56,902 bases of DNA from a virus. The notes under the pieces are model-generated. The model searched no databases, was not told the origin of the DNA, and saw only the letters and a program-made list of their open reading frames with translations. This document shows positions 15,987-27,677 of this stretch, in pieces. The stretch spans positions 1 through 56,902 of IMG/VR virus record IMGVR_UViG_3300025099_000004. One strand, given 5' to 3'. The translations under genes were made by a program, and so were the position numbers. Each line of letters starts with the position of its first letter. Positions within the stretch are counted from its first letter, which is position 1.

Positions 15987-16694
15987 TTATTTCTCCAATC
16001 TTAATGCCAACCATGACACAGGAAACAATCCTTTCATGTTATTGCATATTCTATTTGCTACTAGTCTAGTTTCGTATTGTGTATCACCTGCACATCTAAG
16101 ATTGCACATGTCAGCAAAGGCGTCAAGGCTACCTGACCAGTACCATTCAGTCATGGTGCTTTGTGGCAGTACCATGCGTGCTTGCTCTGGTGCTACTCCA
16201 TTACGCACAAGAGTTTTATATGTCTCAAGTAACCATTCAGATATTTCTATAACATGACCATCCATGTTCCCAGAACCAAGTATGGCAGTATTGTACGGTG
16301 AGTCTTCTATAGTAGACAAGTCTATAACACCTTCGCTACCCTGCTTCTTGTCAATACTACGGCCTCTCCATTTATCAGGGTAGTAGTAAGTTGGTTTATC
16401 GTCTACATACCTACGGCTTATCTCATTCCAACGTAGGAACTTATGCTTCACTAACTGTCGAGCTACAAAGATAGGAGCCTTTACATGAAAGGATGCAAAG
16501 CAATGACCAAAGGGTGAGGTGTGTTTGTGTTCTGCTAAGTAGTGGATTAACTTACTATCCTTATCCTTCAAGATATACTGATCTGTTTCACTGTCATGGT
16601 CATGCCATGTAGATACTTTACCAAAGGATACACGTGCCGCATTAACTACAGACAGGTCACTACCCATGTGATCTATATATGTTACTTTAATCAT
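15987..16694 (-). CDS. thyX: flavin-dependent thymidylate synthase ThyX
   Basis: The enzyme methylates dUMP to dTMP using FAD, NADPH and methylene-tetrahydrofolate. The 235-residue protein matches family length. The signature region at residues 83-96 reads KHKFLRWNEISRRY, so the canonical RHR-x-x-S becomes KHK-x-x-R while N-E-x-S-R-R-Y is kept. KH-type variants are familiar from phage ThyX proteins as far as I recall. C-terminal ARMVLPQSTMTEWYWSGSL is the conserved substrate-binding helix. It overlaps the GIY-YIG gene upstream by eight bases. Confidence 0.92.
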   Translation of the reverse strand: MIKVTYIDHMGSDLSVVNAARVSFGKVSTWHDHDSETDQYILKDKDSKLIHYLAEHKHTSPFGHCFASFHVKAPIFVARQLVKHKFLRWNEISRRYVDDKPTYYYPDKWRGRSIDKKQGSEGVIDLSTIEDSPYNTAILGSGNMDGHVIEISEWLLETYKTLVRNGVAPEQARMVLPQSTMTEWYWSGSLDAFADMCNLRCAGDTQYETRLVANRICNNMKGLFPVSWLALRLEK

Positions 16695-17241
16695 CTGTAA
16701 TCTCCTTTAGTATTTCTATTGCCTGTTCTTCTGTCAGTTTAAACCACTCACCATTGTCATGCTTGTTCCAAGGGTGTGCAGTTTTAAGTGCTGCCATTAT
16801 GTGTGCTTTCTTTTCTGCTACGTTACGATCATCAAAGTGTACTGAGTACACCAGCTTATAATCTCGCATAGGTGAACTTGTCTGGTATCCACTGAGCCTG
16901 TCCTCTGCGTCAAGTGCCTTACCTATCTTGACCCACTCAGGCCATGCGCTATTTACAATAGCATATACATATCCTTCTTTTATTATGTCATAGTTTTTTA
17001 AAGAACCAAACGCTAGATCACCAAAAGACTTATACGTTCCAGACTTATGAAGTGGATGTGACTTTGGTATGTACTTACCATTGACATACATCCTTTGTGG
17101 ATTTCTTTTTTGCTGAGTGGTTCTGTTGTTTTCACGATGACACGTAATACATCTGTACACATACATTTCCTTGTGATATTTACGCCAGTTTTCACCTACT
17201 GTTAATTCAGTGTCACAACTTATACAACTATGTGTTGTCAT
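16687..17241 (-). CDS. GIY-YIG nuclease (T5orf172/MUG113 type) with N-terminal zinc ribbon
   Basis: A 184-residue protein in two parts. The N-terminus has C6-x-x-C9 and C31-x-x-C34, a treble-clef or zinc-ribbon DNA-binding element like those of HNH/homing nucleases. From residue 90 a GIY-YIG domain follows: GYVYAI, then WVKIGKA, then R115 (DAEDRLSGYQ) and the catalytic glutamate near residue 143 (AEKKAH), ending with GEWF. It sits between helicase and ThyX, both frequent homing targets, and overlaps each neighbour by a few bases. A free-standing homing-type endonuclease is the likely identity. Confidence 0.82.
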   Translation of the reverse strand: MTTHSCISCDTELTVGENWRKYHKEMYVYRCITCHRENNRTTQQKRNPQRMYVNGKYIPKSHPLHKSGTYKSFGDLAFGSLKNYDIIKEGYVYAIVNSAWPEWVKIGKALDAEDRLSGYQTSSPMRDYKLVYSVHFDDRNVAEKKAHIMAALKTAHPWNKHDNGEWFKLTEEQAIEILKEITDD

Positions 17242-21456: not shown

Positions 21457-21849
21457 CTACTTATAAAATTTATGTGACCCATAAGCCACAGTCTTCAGTA
21501 ATTTCTTAGACCAGTACGGCCTAACGTATCGTGCATGGTAGTGCGTAGCACCATAAGTTATATCAAGTATCCTACCTGACAGTACATTGTCAGCTACTAT
21601 CAATGACTTAGCCCATGCAAGTTCTTCATAGGGTTTGTCGGACTTACCGTCACAGTACCAGCTAAACTGACACCTGTGGCGTCCTTTGCGGTAGCCCTGC
21701 TTCACGACTTTGCATACATCGTTGGGCCACCTGTTACTTTGTACCCTATTTATTGTGACATGTGCCACTGCATACTGCCCCACCACTGGCTCACTACGAG
21801 CCTCATGGTATACATTAAGGGCAAGGCACATCAATGCTGCACTAAGCAT
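21457..21849 (-). CDS. cell wall hydrolase, SleB/CwlJ family
   Basis: A 130-residue protein covering the family core: NVYHEARSEP with the catalytic glutamate at E16, AVAHVTINRV, then RCQFSWYCDGKSDKPYE and a C-terminal GATHYHARYVRPYW. SleB-type enzymes cleave peptidoglycan glycan strands. No signal peptide is present, so it would need a holin or act from within. A second, unrelated endolysin lies in the late unit at 32.8 kb. Expression with early genes would be odd for lysis and may point to another use. Confidence 0.88.
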   Translation of the reverse strand: MLSAALMCLALNVYHEARSEPVVGQYAVAHVTINRVQSNRWPNDVCKVVKQGYRKGRHRCQFSWYCDGKSDKPYEELAWAKSLIVADNVLSGRILDITYGATHYHARYVRPYWSKKLLKTVAYGSHKFYK

Positions 21850-22351
21850 ACTGCTTCTCTCTTACAAACCAATCAGGAACAGGACGTTTAGTCCACACCA
21901 TCTTGAACTTGTGTTGTTTAGTCATATAAAATTTACGGTAGCTTTCAATGGGCCACTTCTCTCCTGTCTTTAGGTCGGTGTGTTCACTGAAACACTCAGG
22001 ATGGAATGTCGTGCGTCCCTCTGGTACATACTTAGCTGCCTCTTTGAGTGTAGCATAGTGTCGCATAGAGGCATGGACCTTGCCGTACCTGTGTGTGTAT
22101 TCATCTGACATATGTTTGAACATAAGCAGTGAGTACATGTAGTTGTCTCGTGTCCTTCCAGCCCACAAAGTACATGGGTGCTTCTGGTGTACTGCACGAT
22201 ACAGTCCTGCCTCTTCTGCAAACTCAGGTGCATGTAGTCTGACTGTCGTACATAACATCTGTGCCTCTTCAAGTGGCATCTTGACTACATGTTTGTCACA
22301 CATGTCACGAGCGCACCACTCAGGAGTGTAGTTGATTATGAATCTGTTCAT
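21842..22351 (-). CDS. conserved marine-phage protein (CDKHVVKM type)
   Basis: A 169-residue protein with CDKHVVKMPLEEAQML at about residues 18-33 and the HPCTLWAGRTRDNY segment in the middle. Proteins with this signature recur in cyanophages and other marine phages, where they are usually unannotated. The conserved Cys, Asp, His, Lys and Glu could form a catalytic or metal site, but no function is known to me. It overlaps the hydrolase gene by eight bases. Confidence 0.68.
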   Translation of the reverse strand: MNRFIINYTPEWCARDMCDKHVVKMPLEEAQMLCTTVRLHAPEFAEEAGLYRAVHQKHPCTLWAGRTRDNYMYSLLMFKHMSDEYTHRYGKVHASMRHYATLKEAAKYVPEGRTTFHPECFSEHTDLKTGEKWPIESYRKFYMTKQHKFKMVWTKRPVPDWFVREKQYA

Positions 22352-23955: not shown

Positions 23956-24378
23956 TTAAACGTTAAGTTCTAGGGTCGTGTCTTCAAGTTCGTGCCAGCC
24001 AGTAGGCATACACACAAATGCTATGTTGTCTAGTAGATTAACAACAATGTCACCAACTGACAGGCTAGGGTGCTTCATCAGATGGGTAGTTTTAATAGGG
24101 TTGTCTTGCTCTATGCCATTGCCCTCAGCAAATATAGCCTCAAGTCTGGTACTCTCAAGACTTTTCTCACTACCTGCATACTGCATAAACATAGTAGGTT
24201 GATACAAACTGTACACCATTCCTGTATGTACAATTTTTTCTGGTGTAGCATTGTCTTTACCCATCATTATACTCAGGCTAAAGTATGCATCTGCCATAGG
24301 TTTATTACGTCCTGTGTTTATTATCTCTATCAGTTCATCATCAAGAGGACGTTGATATATTAAATATGAATGTAACAT
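23956..24378 (-). CDS. conserved hypothetical protein with SLSVGDIV segment
   Basis: A 140-residue protein. The C-terminal part holds THLMKHPSLSVGDIVV followed by strands, a pattern I associate with small early proteins of cyanophages and pelagiphages of unknown role. The start overlaps the stop of the upstream 41-residue gene by one base (TAATG). Confidence 0.6.
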   Translation of the reverse strand: MLHSYLIYQRPLDDELIEIINTGRNKPMADAYFSLSIMMGKDNATPEKIVHTGMVYSLYQPTMFMQYAGSEKSLESTRLEAIFAEGNGIEQDNPIKTTHLMKHPSLSVGDIVVNLLDNIAFVCMPTGWHELEDTTLELNV

Positions 24379-24503
24379 TAGGCTACCTTTCTACGTAGAC
24401 TGTGTTTCGTTTTACGTGCAAGCTTTCGCTCACGTTTCCAATCATCTTTCTTAGGTCCAACGTTGGACTTAGGTTTCTTCGTAATCTTAACGAAGTTAGT
24501 CAT
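24378..24503 (-). CDS. 41-residue basic protein carrying the SNVGP element
   Basis: Starts MTNFVKITKKPKSNVGPKKD and ends in a run of Lys/Arg (RERKLARKTKHSLRRKVA). The SNVGP peptide is encoded exactly by the 14-bp palindrome at 24455-24468. The protein is highly basic and could bind nucleic acid. It overlaps the next gene by one base and the previous one by eight bases. Confidence 0.6.
   Translation of the reverse strand: MTNFVKITKKPKSNVGPKKDDWKRERKLARKTKHSLRRKVA
24455..24468. repeat. palindromic element copy 1 (GTCCAACGTTGGAC)
   Basis: A perfect 14-bp palindrome inside the 41-residue basic gene, read there as S-N-V-G-P. The flanks CTTAG and TTAGG are almost inverted too. Identical cores lie at 26093 and 26967, with one-base variants at 25715 and 27664. 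Confidence 0.9.
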
Positions 24504-24648
24504 CTCGTAGCGCATTGTACTTCTCCTGCTTACGGTTACGTTTGGCTTTGTTACCCTTCTTAGGGGGTACTACCTGTGGCGATTTGCGTAGTTGTAGCAT
24601 AGCCTTTGCCACAGGATTTACAATACCTATTGTTGGTTTGATTTTCAT
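24496..24648 (-). CDS. small basic hypothetical protein
   Basis: A 50-residue frame: MKIKPTIGIVNPVAKAMLQL followed by a Lys/Arg-rich second half with PPKKGNKAKRNRKQEK. Its start overlaps the stop of the upstream 44-residue frame. Small proteins with this opening and basic tail are common in marine phages; role unknown. Confidence 0.55.
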   Translation of the reverse strand: MKIKPTIGIVNPVAKAMLQLRKSPQVVPPKKGNKAKRNRKQEKYNALRDD

Positions 24649-24779
24649 TTCTGCACCTTAATATATTCACGAGTTATCTTATGCTTAAAGAAAAGCGTCT
24701 CACTGTCCTCATACATAAACATGTAAGAGTTTTTTATAGCTTCAAAAGCTTCTTCAAATTTCTGTTTCACATTCATCAT
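24645..24779 (-). CDS. small hypothetical protein
   Basis: A 44-residue frame opening MMNVKQKFEEAFEAIKNSYM with GGAG nine bases before the ATG. It overlaps the end of the upstream gene by 26 bases and the next gene by four. It is mainly helical, with Tyr/Phe/Met-rich centre. No family recognised. Confidence 0.55.
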   Translation of the reverse strand: MMNVKQKFEEAFEAIKNSYMFMYEDSETLFFKHKITREYIKVQK

Positions 24780-25035
24780 GCCACAAATCTCCTTTGTATA
24801 CTTTATAGTCTATCCTACTTTGTGCCTCTTGTAAGGCATCAATAAGTTCTGTCAAGGTTGAGCCATATCTTATGATAGGCATGAAAGCATTTGGCTCACC
24901 TATACCTACCTCTTGAAACTTAGTTGCTAGTGGGTCAGGGTCTCTGTGTTGTGCAATTGATACCTTAACCCCATTGTGAGTTACATAAATGTAATTAAAA
25001 TCTATCTCAATTAAATTATCCATGTTCAAATCCAT
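24754..25035 (-). CDS. hypothetical protein
   Basis: A 93-residue acidic protein. The start at 25035 overlaps the end of the upstream gene; an internal Met at 25023 is also possible. The pattern (DFNYIYVTHNGVKVSIAQHR strands, then a LTELIDALQEAQSRI helix) looks like a small alpha/beta protein. No family recognised. Confidence 0.55.
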   Translation of the reverse strand: MDLNMDNLIEIDFNYIYVTHNGVKVSIAQHRDPDPLATKFQEVGIGEPNAFMPIIRYGSTLTELIDALQEAQSRIDYKVYKGDLWHDECETEI

Positions 25036-25669
25036 ATGTTATACATTCTACGTGAAACCTAGACACTACGTCACCAGTATCTAAGGCACGATTGGCACGA
25101 TTGCCAGCGACATATTCACACCAGCTATTCCACCAGTATTCTGCCGTATTTGTTTGTTCCATTGGATCTGTAACCATCTTGTGACAGAGGGTCACATATC
25201 CTGCTATCTTTCTACGGATAGTACCTTCGGATGCCTTTAAGTTTATCTTCACTACACTGTCAGATATATCCAACCTCTTGAGGTTATGACTGTCCAGACA
25301 GGCTGTATTAAAGCCAAGGCATTGAGCAAAGAAACCAGCCTTGACCATGCCCATGTTGGGAACATTGACAAACAGTCGTATGATTTCTGAACAACCCATA
25401 GGTGTATCATATCCAAACTTGTCCACTATGTCGTACACTTTGCCATACAAGTAATCGGCATTGTCTACTAGGTACTTGTACCCATCAGACTTTTTGCCCC
25501 ACAAACAGTCGGCATCGTAGCCATCGTTCTGCACCTTGACCATGCTACCTCGTACAGTAGACAGGCCAGCTTGTATCGTAAGCAGTACGAACAGGCCAGT
25601 GTTTACCAAGGCATCTGGACCACGCCATCTGACAAAGGCTTTGATTTCACTTACATCACGTTGATACAT
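25016..25669 (-). CDS. hypothetical protein with HhH-like segment
   Basis: A 217-residue protein. The middle (about residues 100-130) reads NVPNMGMVKAGFFAQCLGFN then ACLDSHN, which resembles the helix-hairpin-helix plus catalytic Asp region of DNA glycosylases of the HhH-GPD group (hairpin, then LG, then D). The C-terminus is Trp/Cys-rich (EYWWNSWCEYV). A base-excision or DNA-binding role is possible, but overall similarity is not visible by eye. Confidence 0.45.
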   Translation of the reverse strand: MYQRDVSEIKAFVRWRGPDALVNTGLFVLLTIQAGLSTVRGSMVKVQNDGYDADCLWGKKSDGYKYLVDNADYLYGKVYDIVDKFGYDTPMGCSEIIRLFVNVPNMGMVKAGFFAQCLGFNTACLDSHNLKRLDISDSVVKINLKASEGTIRRKIAGYVTLCHKMVTDPMEQTNTAEYWWNSWCEYVAGNRANRALDTGDVVSRFHVECITYGFEHG

Positions 25670-25714
25670 TTTTTGTTCCCTCTTGTAGCCATTTTATAAC
25701 TCCGTTATAGTTAG

Positions 25715-25728
25715 GTCCAATGTTGGAC
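25715..25728. repeat. palindromic element copy 2 (GTCCAATGTTGGAC)
   Basis: Differs from the perfect palindrome by one central base. It lies in the spacer downstream of the 63-residue gene, and its last base is part of that gene's stop codon, so here it is not translated as SNVGP. Confidence 0.85.
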
Positions 25729-25919
25729 TAAGCAAATGCCTCGTCCCATTCGGCAGGTGTAATACCTGTCTTTAAGAACTCACGTTCATCTGCAGTCAGG
25801 TTAGGCATCACCTCTTGTATTGATGCACCTTCCATCCACAATGTAATCTGCTTTTCAGATACATCAATTTCCATTTCATGTGACTTACCACTCAACATTG
25901 ATTTTTTACCAACTAACAT
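25728..25919 (-). CDS. conserved small marine-phage protein (SMLSGK / REFLKTGIT type)
   Basis: A 63-residue protein: MLVGKKSMLSGKSHEMEIDV, then NLTADEREFLKTGITPAEWD. I recall close relatives in T4-like cyanophages and pelagiphages, all of unknown function. AAGGAAAC lies nine bases before the ATG. It is directly downstream of a promoter-like inverted repeat (25955-25997) and so may be transcribed on its own. Confidence 0.7.
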   Translation of the reverse strand: MLVGKKSMLSGKSHEMEIDVSEKQITLWMEGASIQEVMPNLTADEREFLKTGITPAEWDEAFA

Positions 25920-25954
25920 TCTGTATGTTTCCTTGTTTGTTACTGTCTATACAT

Positions 25955-25984
25955 GTTATATAAACACTTTCACTAAAGTATCAA
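25955..25984 (-). promoter_or_regulatory. sigma70-type promoter inside a 15-bp inverted repeat
   Basis: On the minus strand TTGATA (25984-25979) is followed after 16 bases by TATATA, or after 18 by TATAAC. Both hexamers fall in a perfect 15-bp inverted repeat, GTTATATAAACACTT at 25955-25969 and its complement at 25983-25997, separated by 13 bases. The arrangement suits a promoter overlapped by an operator, upstream of the gene starting at 25919. Confidence 0.55.
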
Positions 25985-25997
25985 GTGTTTATATAAC
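25955..25997. repeat. perfect 15-bp inverted repeat
   Basis: Arms GTTATATAAACACTT and AAGTGTTTATATAAC with a 13-base spacer that itself contains ACTTT-CACT-AAAGT. No U tract follows on either strand, so it is not a standard terminator. A dimeric repressor site or RNA-processing hairpin is more likely. Confidence 0.9.
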
Positions 25998-26012
25998 TGT
26001 AAGACAAGTAGT

Positions 26013-26228
26013 TTAATTTACGTCACGCCATCCTGTGTCTTGACGCCATTCAATTAAGTTACCGACTTGATCATAAACTTCGTTTACTTTAGGTCCAACG
26101 TTGGACTTGGCTTGTTGCTGTTTAGCAAGGTCAAGTCGAGCTTTCAGCTCAATACGTCTGTCTGCTTTCGGCGTAGCATAGACTTGTCGTAGTCTAGCAG
26201 AGCTAGAATTATGTAAATAATATTTCAT
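26013..26228 (-). CDS. hypothetical protein carrying the SNVGP element
   Basis: The start at 26228 (MKYYLHNSSSARLRQVYATP) follows GGAG by six bases; the longer frame from 26246 lacks a site. This gives 71 residues. The middle is basic (KADRRIELKARLDLAKQQQ), followed by AKSNVGPKVNEV, where SNVGP is encoded by the palindrome at 26093-26106. The C-terminus is Trp-rich. No family recognised. Confidence 0.6.
   Translation of the reverse strand: MKYYLHNSSSARLRQVYATPKADRRIELKARLDLAKQQQAKSNVGPKVNEVYDQVGNLIEWRQDTGWRDVN
26093..26106. repeat. palindromic element copy 3 (GTCCAACGTTGGAC)
   Basis: Perfect 14-bp palindrome inside the 71-residue gene, in the same reading frame relative to translation as copies 1 and 4, giving K-S-N-V-G-P. 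Confidence 0.9.
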
Positions 26229-26229
26229 A

Positions 26230-26373
26230 TTATACTCCAAATACATAGCAAAGTTTTGCTATTGAGAAACCAATAATTGCTACATCAATTATAATAATTG
26301 ACCATGCAACAAAGCGAATTAAATCATGGTAAGTACCATCAGCTTGGCACAAGTATTTAACTACGTTAAACAT
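26230..26373 (-). CDS. 47-residue single-pass membrane protein
   Basis: MFNVVKYLCQADGTYHDLIR is followed by a long hydrophobic stretch (FVAWSIIIIDVAIIGFSIA) that should cross the membrane once, and a short tail. It overlaps the upstream gene's stop by eight bases and ends next to the GGAG of the following gene. A hairpin at 26245-26262 (eight-bp stem) lies in its 3' part. A small early membrane protein could block superinfection or alter host transport; this is only a guess. Confidence 0.6.
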   Translation of the reverse strand: MFNVVKYLCQADGTYHDLIRFVAWSIIIIDVAIIGFSIAKLCYVFGV

Positions 26374-26560
26374 CATCATCATCGTCCTCTTCTAGATTTC
26401 CAAAAAGAGTAAGACACTGAAGTGTGTGACCTTCTTTACCTATTTTTGTGAAGTGATCGACAATTCTATCAATACTATCACCTTCTTCCATATCTATGGT
26501 TGTAGGTGACGTATTGCCATAGTGATTAGATGTCAGATACATTGTTAATTTATATTTCAT
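26366..26560 (-). CDS. hypothetical acidic protein
   Basis: A 64-residue protein, MKYKLTMYLTSNHYGNTSPT and onward, ending in EEDDDDDV. A short strand-rich front followed by a helix and an acidic tail. Such polyacidic tails appear in phage proteins that mimic DNA or bind basic partners. No family recognised. Confidence 0.55.
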   Translation of the reverse strand: MKYKLTMYLTSNHYGNTSPTTIDMEEGDSIDRIVDHFTKIGKEGHTLQCLTLFGNLEEDDDDDV

Positions 26561-26574
26561 TTTGTAATCTCCCT

Positions 26575-26772
26575 TTACGCCAACGATACCTTAACGACAT
26601 CGCCTTGCGGATTGTACATAACCGACACAGTACGATGCACATTTCTTGCACCCATCCATGTATTCCACCATGCATCTGCATCAGATTTTGTATCACAAAA
26701 TAAACTATTGCAATGTAAATCTGTCGTGCTTTCTTCCGCATAACAAGAATGGGTAGATTTTAATTCCCACAT
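26575..26772 (-). CDS. hypothetical protein
   Basis: A 65-residue protein rich in Trp, Cys and Ser (SDADAWWNTWMGARNVHRTV). Its ribosome-binding AAAGG lies inside a perfect six-bp hairpin with TTC loop (26778-26792), so folding of the leader could control its translation. No family recognised. Confidence 0.55.
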   Translation of the reverse strand: MWELKSTHSCYAEESTTDLHCNSLFCDTKSDADAWWNTWMGARNVHRTVSVMYNPQGDVVKVSLA

Positions 26773-26802
26773 GATAATAACCTTTCAGGTTAAAGTGACA
26801 GC

Positions 26803-27384
26803 TTACGCTGCCACCTTTGTTTCTTCTGCTTCAGCTTCGCTGACTGTATCCACTTCCATTAGCATCTCTGCTATGTCGAGTAGGTCTATGTTATTTGCTT
26901 TGCAAACTGCAACCAGCTTGTCAAAGACAAGTTCTTTGGTGACAGTAACCGTAGGTTTCTCAGTAGGTCCAACGTTGGACTTGACTTCAGCTTCGCTGTT
27001 AGTACCTTCGGTATCTTCAGCCTTTGGCTTGCTAGGCTTCATAGCTCTCTGCAAAGCAGTGAGAGAAGTAAATCCTTTCTTGCTTTTAGCAACAAACTTT
27101 CTAGCATCAACTTCGTTGTTGATAAACCATTCAGCTTCGCTGCGGCGTCTCTTGTCCACTAAGTGGAGATGAACTTCACGAAGCCTTTGGCTTGTGATTT
27201 TACCACCATTGACTTCGGCTCTCAATTCTACCATCAGCTTTCCAAGCCGTGTGTCGAATCCATCAGCTTTGGTTGACTTGTTGAAACGTCTCTTATCACC
27301 TTTGGTGATTGTTTCCCATTCCTCTGCTAAGGCTTTGCCTTGATCTTCCAGAGTTGTGATATTTTGAATTTGAAGATTTGCCAT
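26803..27384 (-). CDS. first gene of the leftward unit; charged hypothetical protein with SNVGP element
   Basis: A 193-residue protein rich in Lys, Glu and Ala. Residues 1-100 are probably helical and folded (for example EEWETITKGDKRRF and VELRAEVNGGKITSQRL). Residues 115-145 form a low-complexity linker with KPSKPKAEDTEG and VKSNVGPTEKP. The C-terminal part has a FDKLVAVCKANNIDLLDIAE helical segment and ends in acidic EAEAEETKVAA. The reading frame is packed with mini-hairpins, so many codons read as a triplet, GAA or AAA, then its complement (S-E-A, N-E-V, T-E-G). AAGGA precedes the ATG. No family recognised; its position suggests immediate-early expression. Confidence 0.65.
   Translation of the reverse strand: MANLQIQNITTLEDQGKALAEEWETITKGDKRRFNKSTKADGFDTRLGKLMVELRAEVNGGKITSQRLREVHLHLVDKRRRSEAEWFINNEVDARKFVAKSKKGFTSLTALQRAMKPSKPKAEDTEGTNSEAEVKSNVGPTEKPTVTVTKELVFDKLVAVCKANNIDLLDIAEMLMEVDTVSEAEAEETKVAA
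26967..26980. repeat. palindromic element copy 4 (GTCCAACGTTGGAC)
   Basis: Perfect 14-bp palindrome inside the 193-residue gene, translated K-S-N-V-G-P in the Lys/Glu-rich linker. Confidence 0.9.
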
Positions 27385-27663
27385 TTGGTTGGTCCTTTTA
27401 TCTATAATCTGTTTTTATATGAGAAACGTATATCTCTCACTAAAGGTGAGATATACTTTATCATTAAAAACTAATAGATTATAGTATAAGTTTTCGATTT
27501 GGTTCTCACATGTGATCCTCTGCGCCTGTCGTTTCACAGGTGACTGCAAAAATATATTTCATATATATTTTGAAGTTCGTGCGCTAAACTCATGCGAGGC
27601 TTCGATTTGCACAAACATCTGAAAAGTGTGACAAATATGTCATATACTTTGTATATGGGTTAA

Positions 27664-27677
27664 GTCCAACATTGGAC
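27664..27677. repeat. palindromic element copy 5 (GTCCAACATTGGAC)
   Basis: One-base variant of the palindrome in the non-coding leader of the leftward unit, next to the seven-bp CATATAC-TTT-GTATATG hairpin at 27641-27657. It shows that the element is not confined to coding sequence. Confidence 0.85.

Follow-up and report, generated by a model that had tools for sequence, protein, structure and literature searches.

Dispersed palindromes in the early genes of an HMO-2011-type marine phage as probable operators of the early-operon protein Gp1

Introduction

Phage operators that are scattered over the genome and evolve in step with the repressor are already known from the cluster A mycobacteriophages, where they are called stoperators. 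Here we describe a 14-bp palindrome that recurs among the early genes of a marine phage, and that is probably the operator of Gp1, the protein encoded by the first of these genes. The DNA analyzed is IMG/VR virus record IMGVR_UViG_3300025099_000004, positions 1 to 56,902, and this whole stretch of 56,902 nucleotides (nt) is referred to below as the window.

The stoperator consensus co-varies with the repressor protein between lineages (PMC6550527), and the stoperator is asymmetric and bound by a monomer (PMC9283540). Like the stoperators (L5 gp71), the sites described here go together with a phage-encoded protein, are short, numerous and dispersed in gene gaps, lie mostly away from promoters and near translation starts or stops, and are oriented with transcription. 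Unlike the stoperators, they are palindromic, 14 bp long and confined to ~4 kb of early genes, Gp1 is not recognizably related to known repressors, and a block to elongation is here only a proposal.

Cro-like early repressors of lambdoid phages are encoded at the head of the early operon, with their operators nearby, and the operators of the 434 type are 14 bp long. Gp1 also stands at the head of an early operon, and its site is a two-fold symmetric 14-mer with a loosely specified centre, but the sites are dispersed along the operon and within genes, and the protein has no HTH_3/XRE family match. The lambda O protein binds the ori iterons, which lie within its own gene, at an inter-domain linker. 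The site inside gp1 likewise falls at a linker, whereas the Gp1 sites stand singly, 0.2–1.5 kb apart over several genes, instead of forming tandem iterons, and there is no evidence of an origin. The palindromic elements of Rickettsia are ~100–150 bp long and mobile. They share with the Gp1 sites the tolerance of a palindrome in coding sequence and a preferred frame, but the latter are 14-bp sites that track a protein and occupy homologous positions.

Results

Comparison of the window with known phages shows that it belongs to an HMO-2011-type marine phage, containing the family A DNA polymerase with a DnaJ zinc insert, the DnaB-type helicase and the primase by which the type is defined (PMC9038755). 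Phages of this type are among the dominant marine virus groups; related subgroup I phages carry integrases, and CRP-3 (subgroup III) integrates (PMC9038755). By polymerase identity, the best relatives are the Roseobacter phages CRP-345 (79%) and CRP-1 (78%) and the SAR116 phage HMO-2011 (68%). The early genes are oriented leftward, starting at ~27.4 kb.

The palindrome, GTCCAANNTTGGAC, is present in five copies, all within 3.2 kb of early genes. A re-scan bore out the preliminary description of this DNA with respect to the three perfect copies (24455, 26093 and 26967), the two one-base variants (25715 and 27664) and their confinement to 3.2 kb of the early region. Its claim that three copies are coding and read in one frame also held, as minus-strand translation gives KSNVGP for each of them, within open reading frames (ORFs) of 193, 77 and 45 amino acids (aa). 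The sites (S1–S5, no strand assigned) and the genes around them are as follows.

27664..27677: S1, GTCCAACATTGGAC, one-base variant AACATT; non-coding, lies upstream of gp1 at 280 nt from its start
26803..27384, minus strand: gp1 (193 aa), heads the leftward early operon; its product is the proposed DNA-binding regulator, with putative recognition helix 108–115 (Thr109) and with Lys78
26967..26980: S2, GTCCAACGTTGGAC, inside gp1, KSNVGP in a disordered linker, residues ~136–141
26013..26246, minus strand: 77-aa early ORF, carries S3
26093..26106: S3, GTCCAACGTTGGAC, inside the 77-aa ORF, codes KSNVGP
25728..25919, minus strand: 63-aa early ORF of unknown function (phrog_20898), located upstream of S4
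25715..25728: S4, GTCCAATGTTGGAC, one-base variant AATGTT; lies ahead of the start of the 217-aa ORF and overlaps the 63-aa ORF at its stop codon
25016..25669, minus strand: 217-aa early ORF, downstream of S4
24378..24515, minus strand: 45-aa early ORF, carries S5
24455..24468: S5, GTCCAACGTTGGAC, inside the 45-aa ORF, codes KSNVGP

No further copy was found elsewhere in the 56.9 kb at up to two mismatches, and the only perfect palindromes of at least 14 bp in the window are the GTCCAACGTTGGAC copies. A first-order Markov model predicts 0.0026 occurrences of GTCCAANNTTGGAC per window, giving a probability of ~1e-15 for five by chance. The window contains 30 inverted repeats with a 6-NN-6 layout, and this half-site is the only one to recur.

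To define the distribution of the sites, IMG/VR was scanned for AGTCCAACRTTGGAC, which matched at least 119 stretches. Among the matches listed, at least 53 stretches contained two or more copies, typically 3–7, a few hundred bases apart. The HMO-2011-type polymerase was also present in 27 of 47 multi-copy contigs, and many of the remainder are short fragments. The early region of related phages contains 4–9 sites, always adjoining a Gp1 homolog. In CRP-345 and CRP-1, sites are found both within gp1 and upstream of it, upstream of the 217-aa homolog and in the 45-aa homolog, all of them positions that are occupied in the window, with an extra site in the integrase. A strict-palindrome search of HMO-2011 found no site of the window's spelling, the HMO-2011 site having an asymmetric centre, and a search for GTCC-N6-GGAC revealed five copies of AGTCCGACAGCGGACT in the corresponding region. 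This sequence is also found five-fold in other contigs.

Searches with the early proteins of the window identified Gp1 in 41 loci (E-values to 1e-4), and not in site-less relatives. The HMO-2011 homolog shares 31% identity with it (profile E 1e-26). Neither Gp1 nor repeated GTCC-N6-GGAC sites were found in CRP-2, CRP-603, CRP-207, HTVC033P, CRP-3, CRP-235, CRP-212 and CRP-738. Loci retrieved by Gp1 profile rather than by site nearly all contained several sites. Two that seemed site-less (L199 and L200) lack any GTCC-N6-GGAC site and contain five copies of CCCCAACGTTGGGG each. A second profile search added 55 further distinct loci, each with at least two sites, and a third added a group (L342, L343 and L345) with four or five copies of GTCCGCTGACGGAC. 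Scattered copies without Gp1 in four IMG/VR contigs (G047, G048, G046 and G051) look like chance or unrelated matches, and six other contigs lacking Gp1 are fragments. A scan of 84,980 host genomes revealed no relative of Gp1, and thus no prophage support.

The spelling of the sites is uniform within a genome and differs by lineage: GTCCAA-NN-TTGGAC, GTCCGA-NN-TCGGAC, GTCCGACAGCGGAC (HMO-2011), GTCCGCTGACGGAC or CCCCAACGTTGGGG. Among 113 loci with at least four sites, 97 have one letter at position 5 in at least 90% of half-sites. L176 and L179 (AA type) share flanks with L177 (GA type) and differ from it in type at all five sites. In L178, four of five sites are of the GA type, and an AA site is retained upstream of gp1. 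Coding and non-coding copies change type together. Such concerted switching is predicted by a trans-acting reader of changing specificity.

Two genomes, L178 and L194 (IMG/VR 3300023243_000016 and 3300023237_000098), combine a Ser109 Gp1 with one AA site upstream of gp1, the others seen being GA. The leftover AA site could reflect a recent recombination or an intermediate in a specificity switch.

For 78 distinct Gp1s whose loci had sufficient sites, Gp1 residues were compared with the site type. The choice between A and G at half-site position 5 follows residue 109, the mean G fraction being 0.03 with Thr (52 genomes), 0.78 with Ser (14) and 1.0 with Lys (11). Residue 116 is equally strong, with Lys or Arg accompanying A, and Ala or Asp accompanying G. 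The Gp1 columns gave adjusted R2 values of 0.86 and 0.74. Control proteins from the same loci, where represented in 30 or more genomes, gave 0.51 at most for a single column, except for a residue of the 45-aa protein that is coded by the site itself (0.72). On a tree built without the tested Gp1 columns, residue 109 and the motif type each changed 14 times, and in 8 well-supported independent pairs residue and motif agreed in 6.3 and opposed in 0.1.

The residue-109 rule was then applied out of sample, and was correct for 50 of 52 new Gp1 loci (Fisher p 7e-9). Thr109 went with the A type in 40 of 41 and Ser109 with the G type in 10 of 11. The Ser109 exception, L273, has Arg113 and Arg116, as do earlier Ser109 phages with mixed sites. 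In these alignments, the site type is tied to Gp1 residues 109, 113 and 116. At residue 78, all 133 other aligned Gp1s have Lys or Arg, and only L199 and L200 have Asp. This suggests that residue 78 may be tied to the outer bases, which are changed only in the L199/L200 type, a single lineage.

A host transcription factor or methyltransferase could in principle read the sites, as a palindrome with a YR-rich centre would suit such proteins. We consider this very improbable, because changes of motif go with changes at residues within a phage protein, and the arrangement is common to phages of SAR116 and Roseobacter hosts. The HMO-2011-type phages CRP-2, CRP-603 and CRP-207, which encode a cytosine methylase, have no repeated sites, which argues against a methyltransferase in particular. 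A restriction-modification site was disfavored for the same lack of sites in methylase-encoding relatives, and because the copies are confined to 3.2 kb and not genome-wide.

The AlphaFold2 model of Gp1 contains a confident helical part, residues 11–110 (block pLDDT, predicted local distance difference test, 91–97), a disordered linker, residues 123–142, within which the in-gene site falls, and a C-terminal part that is small and helical. The modeled helix 108–115 follows a turn and begins with Leu108-Thr109. Its putative role as a recognition helix is based on covariation, and not on a fold match. Gp1 has no PHROG match, no gathering-level Pfam match, no PDB sequence match and no credible family. 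Foldseek and VIA-align searches with full Gp1 and residues 40–122 gave nothing credible except one BFVD entry, S4S2E1, with 28% identity to Gp1, which may be the HMO-2011 homolog. The absence of a fold match does not prove a new fold. For HTH_3/XRE, Gp1 had no match in Pfam or Foldseek, and its model is helical. A ParB-parS system was not supported, as Gp1 has no ParB match, and no ParA was found among the replication and early proteins scanned, a set that left out the late genes.

The 87 distinct Gp1 loci contained 413 sites, of which 146 were called coding. The single reading frame noted in the window extends to the relatives, with 141 of the 146 coding copies in a Ser-x-x-Gly frame. That one peptide in one frame is found in most coding copies could point to selection for an SNVGP motif in three proteins, a reading which, in the preliminary description, hinged on homologs spelling SNVGP with other codons. 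In the 87 loci, the palindrome spells 292 of 297 SNVG[PLQ]-type peptides. The peptide also varies with the site type, together with the non-coding copies: SNVG becomes SDVG in GA genomes, SDSG or SADG in the HMO types and PNVG in L199, and several Gp1s contain no such peptide at all. By contrast, the integrase SKVG/SKIG, which is conserved as protein, has 18 spellings, of which one completes the palindrome (CRP-1 and CRP-345). The near-uniform palindrome spelling, set against the 18 integrase spellings, argues that the DNA is selected and the peptide follows. Judged by codon usage, the palindrome is a DNA signal and not a protein motif; selection for the peptide is already refuted and retains practically no probability. 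The other two frames of the site read VQRW or PTLD, and the preferred frame reads small residues, which probably explains the frame bias.

The presence of copies in both genes and gaps, and the variation in copy number from 4 to 9, would fit a mobile palindromic element inserting into genes, similar to those of Rickettsia but far shorter. This too is highly improbable, because the 14 bp have no longer common body and occupy homologous positions across phages. Moreover, the integrase site of CRP-1 and CRP-345 differs from the window integrase by two synonymous point changes within a pre-existing SKVG, with no insertion.

A Shine-Dalgarno sequence and ATG lie within 100 nt of 177 of 183 non-coding sites downstream of gp1, at a median of 9 nt beyond the site. 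On the left, 126 of these 183 sites touch a stop triplet, compared with 23% of random positions. One site usually lies 200–330 nt upstream of gp1. Positions 6 and 9 of the site are conserved symmetrically, and only the central 2 bp vary freely. No helical phasing of the site spacings was evident. TTGACA/TATACT-like boxes were seen ~110 and 85 nt upstream of some intergenic sites in poorly controlled scans, and are not relied on. The exact fit of many copies between a stop codon and the next Shine-Dalgarno sequence, in a region of high gene turnover, could suggest short linkers for modular recombination at gene boundaries. We regard this as quite improbable, because a third of the copies are in genes, and switching with Gp1 residues would be unexplained.

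The early region contains a second recurrent element, consisting of strong hairpins whose arms vary between copies yet stay complementary, with a conserved loop, (GATAC)TTTAGTGA. Two copies in the window are listed below.

27428..27456, minus strand: hairpin with the conserved TTTAGTGA loop, in the gp1 leader
25955..25997, minus strand: hairpin GTTATATAAACACTT-gatactttagtga-AAGTGTTTATATAAC, upstream of the 63-aa ORF

The element is also present in HMO-2011 (at about 10 and 1210) and in leader-like gaps of many related loci, and lies 30–60 nt upstream of the next Gp1 site in 40 of 60 cases. The element resembles a conserved RNA leader structure. The gp1 leader (~27500–27600, minus strand) contains blocks common to the window and HMO-2011, GAGTTTAGCGCAC... 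and GGCGCAGAGGAT or GCGCAGAGGAT, which suggests that this leader is structured or has a regulatory role. An Rfam search of the region gave nothing credible.

Other genes of the window were noted in passing. The 217-aa early protein (25016–25669, minus strand) contains a stretch, VNVPNMGMVKAGFFAQCLGFNTACLDSHNLKRL, that recalls HhH-GPD DNA glycosylases, and had no match in Pfam. A weak Pyr_excise-like protein is encoded at 21842–22351, and a T5orf172/MUG113 (GIY-YIG-like) protein at 16687–17241 (minus strand), between the helicase and thymidylate synthase genes. In two related contigs, G014 (3300050343_000057) and G017 (3300046170_000018), parts of the polymerase frames contain many stops, probably due to sequencing errors.

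Discussion

We propose that the palindromes are operators of Gp1, an autoregulating early-operon DNA-binding protein with dispersed sites, and we hold this to be probably correct. Gp1, probably dimeric, would recognize two copies of the half-site GTCCAA separated by a free 2-bp centre. Thr109, in the first turn of the helix, would contact the A:T pair at half-site position 5, and Lys/Arg78 may contact the outer bases. With sites in the gp1 leader, in gp1, in the intervals that separate stop codons from the ribosome-binding sites of the next small early genes, and in disordered parts of some of these genes' products, accumulating Gp1 would bind and damp its own operon and the next 3–4 kb of early genes. 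Early-gene shut-off would be autoregulated in this way, in part by blocking elongation, as at the mycobacteriophage stoperators. In-gene sites would be kept in the small-residue frame (S-N/D-V-G), so that a change of operator becomes a change of peptide. Because Gp1 is encoded at the head of the same-strand run of genes that carries the sites, Cro-like damping suits it better than the role of a CI-like lysogeny repressor. Of the readings offered in the preliminary description, that of a protein recognition site that is also translated is supported, and the mobile palindromic element and the methylase site are not.

Several results weigh against this proposal. Control proteins represented in fewer genomes (20–28) also gave some high adjusted R2 values (0.90 for the 217-aa protein, 0.97 for the primase in 20 genomes), probably as a result of over-fitting and ancestry. 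The rows compared are related, so that raw counts overstate independence, and a sign test on supported branches gave a median p of only ~0.03. Foldseek searches with full Gp1 or its domain found no related solved structure, leaving a helix-turn-helix unconfirmed by fold. Asymmetric centres are biased with transcription, in 57 versus 19 non-coding context clusters (30 versus 3 for coding). Among sites with a changed stem pair, G.U-compatible outnumber A.C by 7 to 1 (p 0.07), as an RNA hairpin would give.

The last two points bear on control at the RNA level, in which a GUCCA/UGGAC hairpin upstream of the Shine-Dalgarno sequence would be bound by Gp1 or a nuclease, controlling translation or decay. 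The placement of the sites and their orientation bias resemble those of stoperators, and also fit such a hairpin, since the sites end close before the Shine-Dalgarno sequence and symmetric changes in the DNA are also compensatory in RNA. However, symmetric conservation extends to positions 6 and 9, which an RNA hairpin would place in its loop, with only the central 2 bp free, and the centre is reversed in about a quarter of the non-coding clusters. Sites also occur inside genes, and S1 lies ~280 nt from gp1. The Thr/Ser switch that accompanies the change from A:T to G:C would fit a contact with the thymine methyl group in DNA. The free centre, symmetric flanks, reversed centres, in-gene copies and Thr/Ser switch favor DNA recognition, while the transcription bias and G.U-compatible intermediates keep RNA recognition alive, as an unlikely alternative.

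As far as our searches reach, there is no earlier description of the protein family, of the palindromic site and its restriction to the early region, or of the translated copies. A literature search for the literal motif found no paper, and no regulator or regulatory site for HMO-2011-type phages was described in the literature searched; the paper on phages of this type makes no mention of palindromes or promoters (PMC9038755). We suggest, tentatively and as a possibility that falls somewhat short of even chances, that Gp1 is the first member of a new family of regulators that bind specific DNA sequences, that its fold is absent from the PDB and its specificity can be read from residues 78, 109, 113 and 116, and that dispersed, often translated roadblock operators control the early program in one of the most common phage groups of the ocean, with operator evolution rewriting proteins in parallel.

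The operator proposal names a candidate for the regulator, points to its operators and supplies a specificity rule by which motifs in unseen genomes are already predicted. The translated sites offer a clear natural example in which selection on the DNA sets the peptide of a coding sequence, the non-coding copies serving as control. Should Gp1 be a repressor, the pairing of Gp1 and site type could predict cross-immunity between co-infecting phages.

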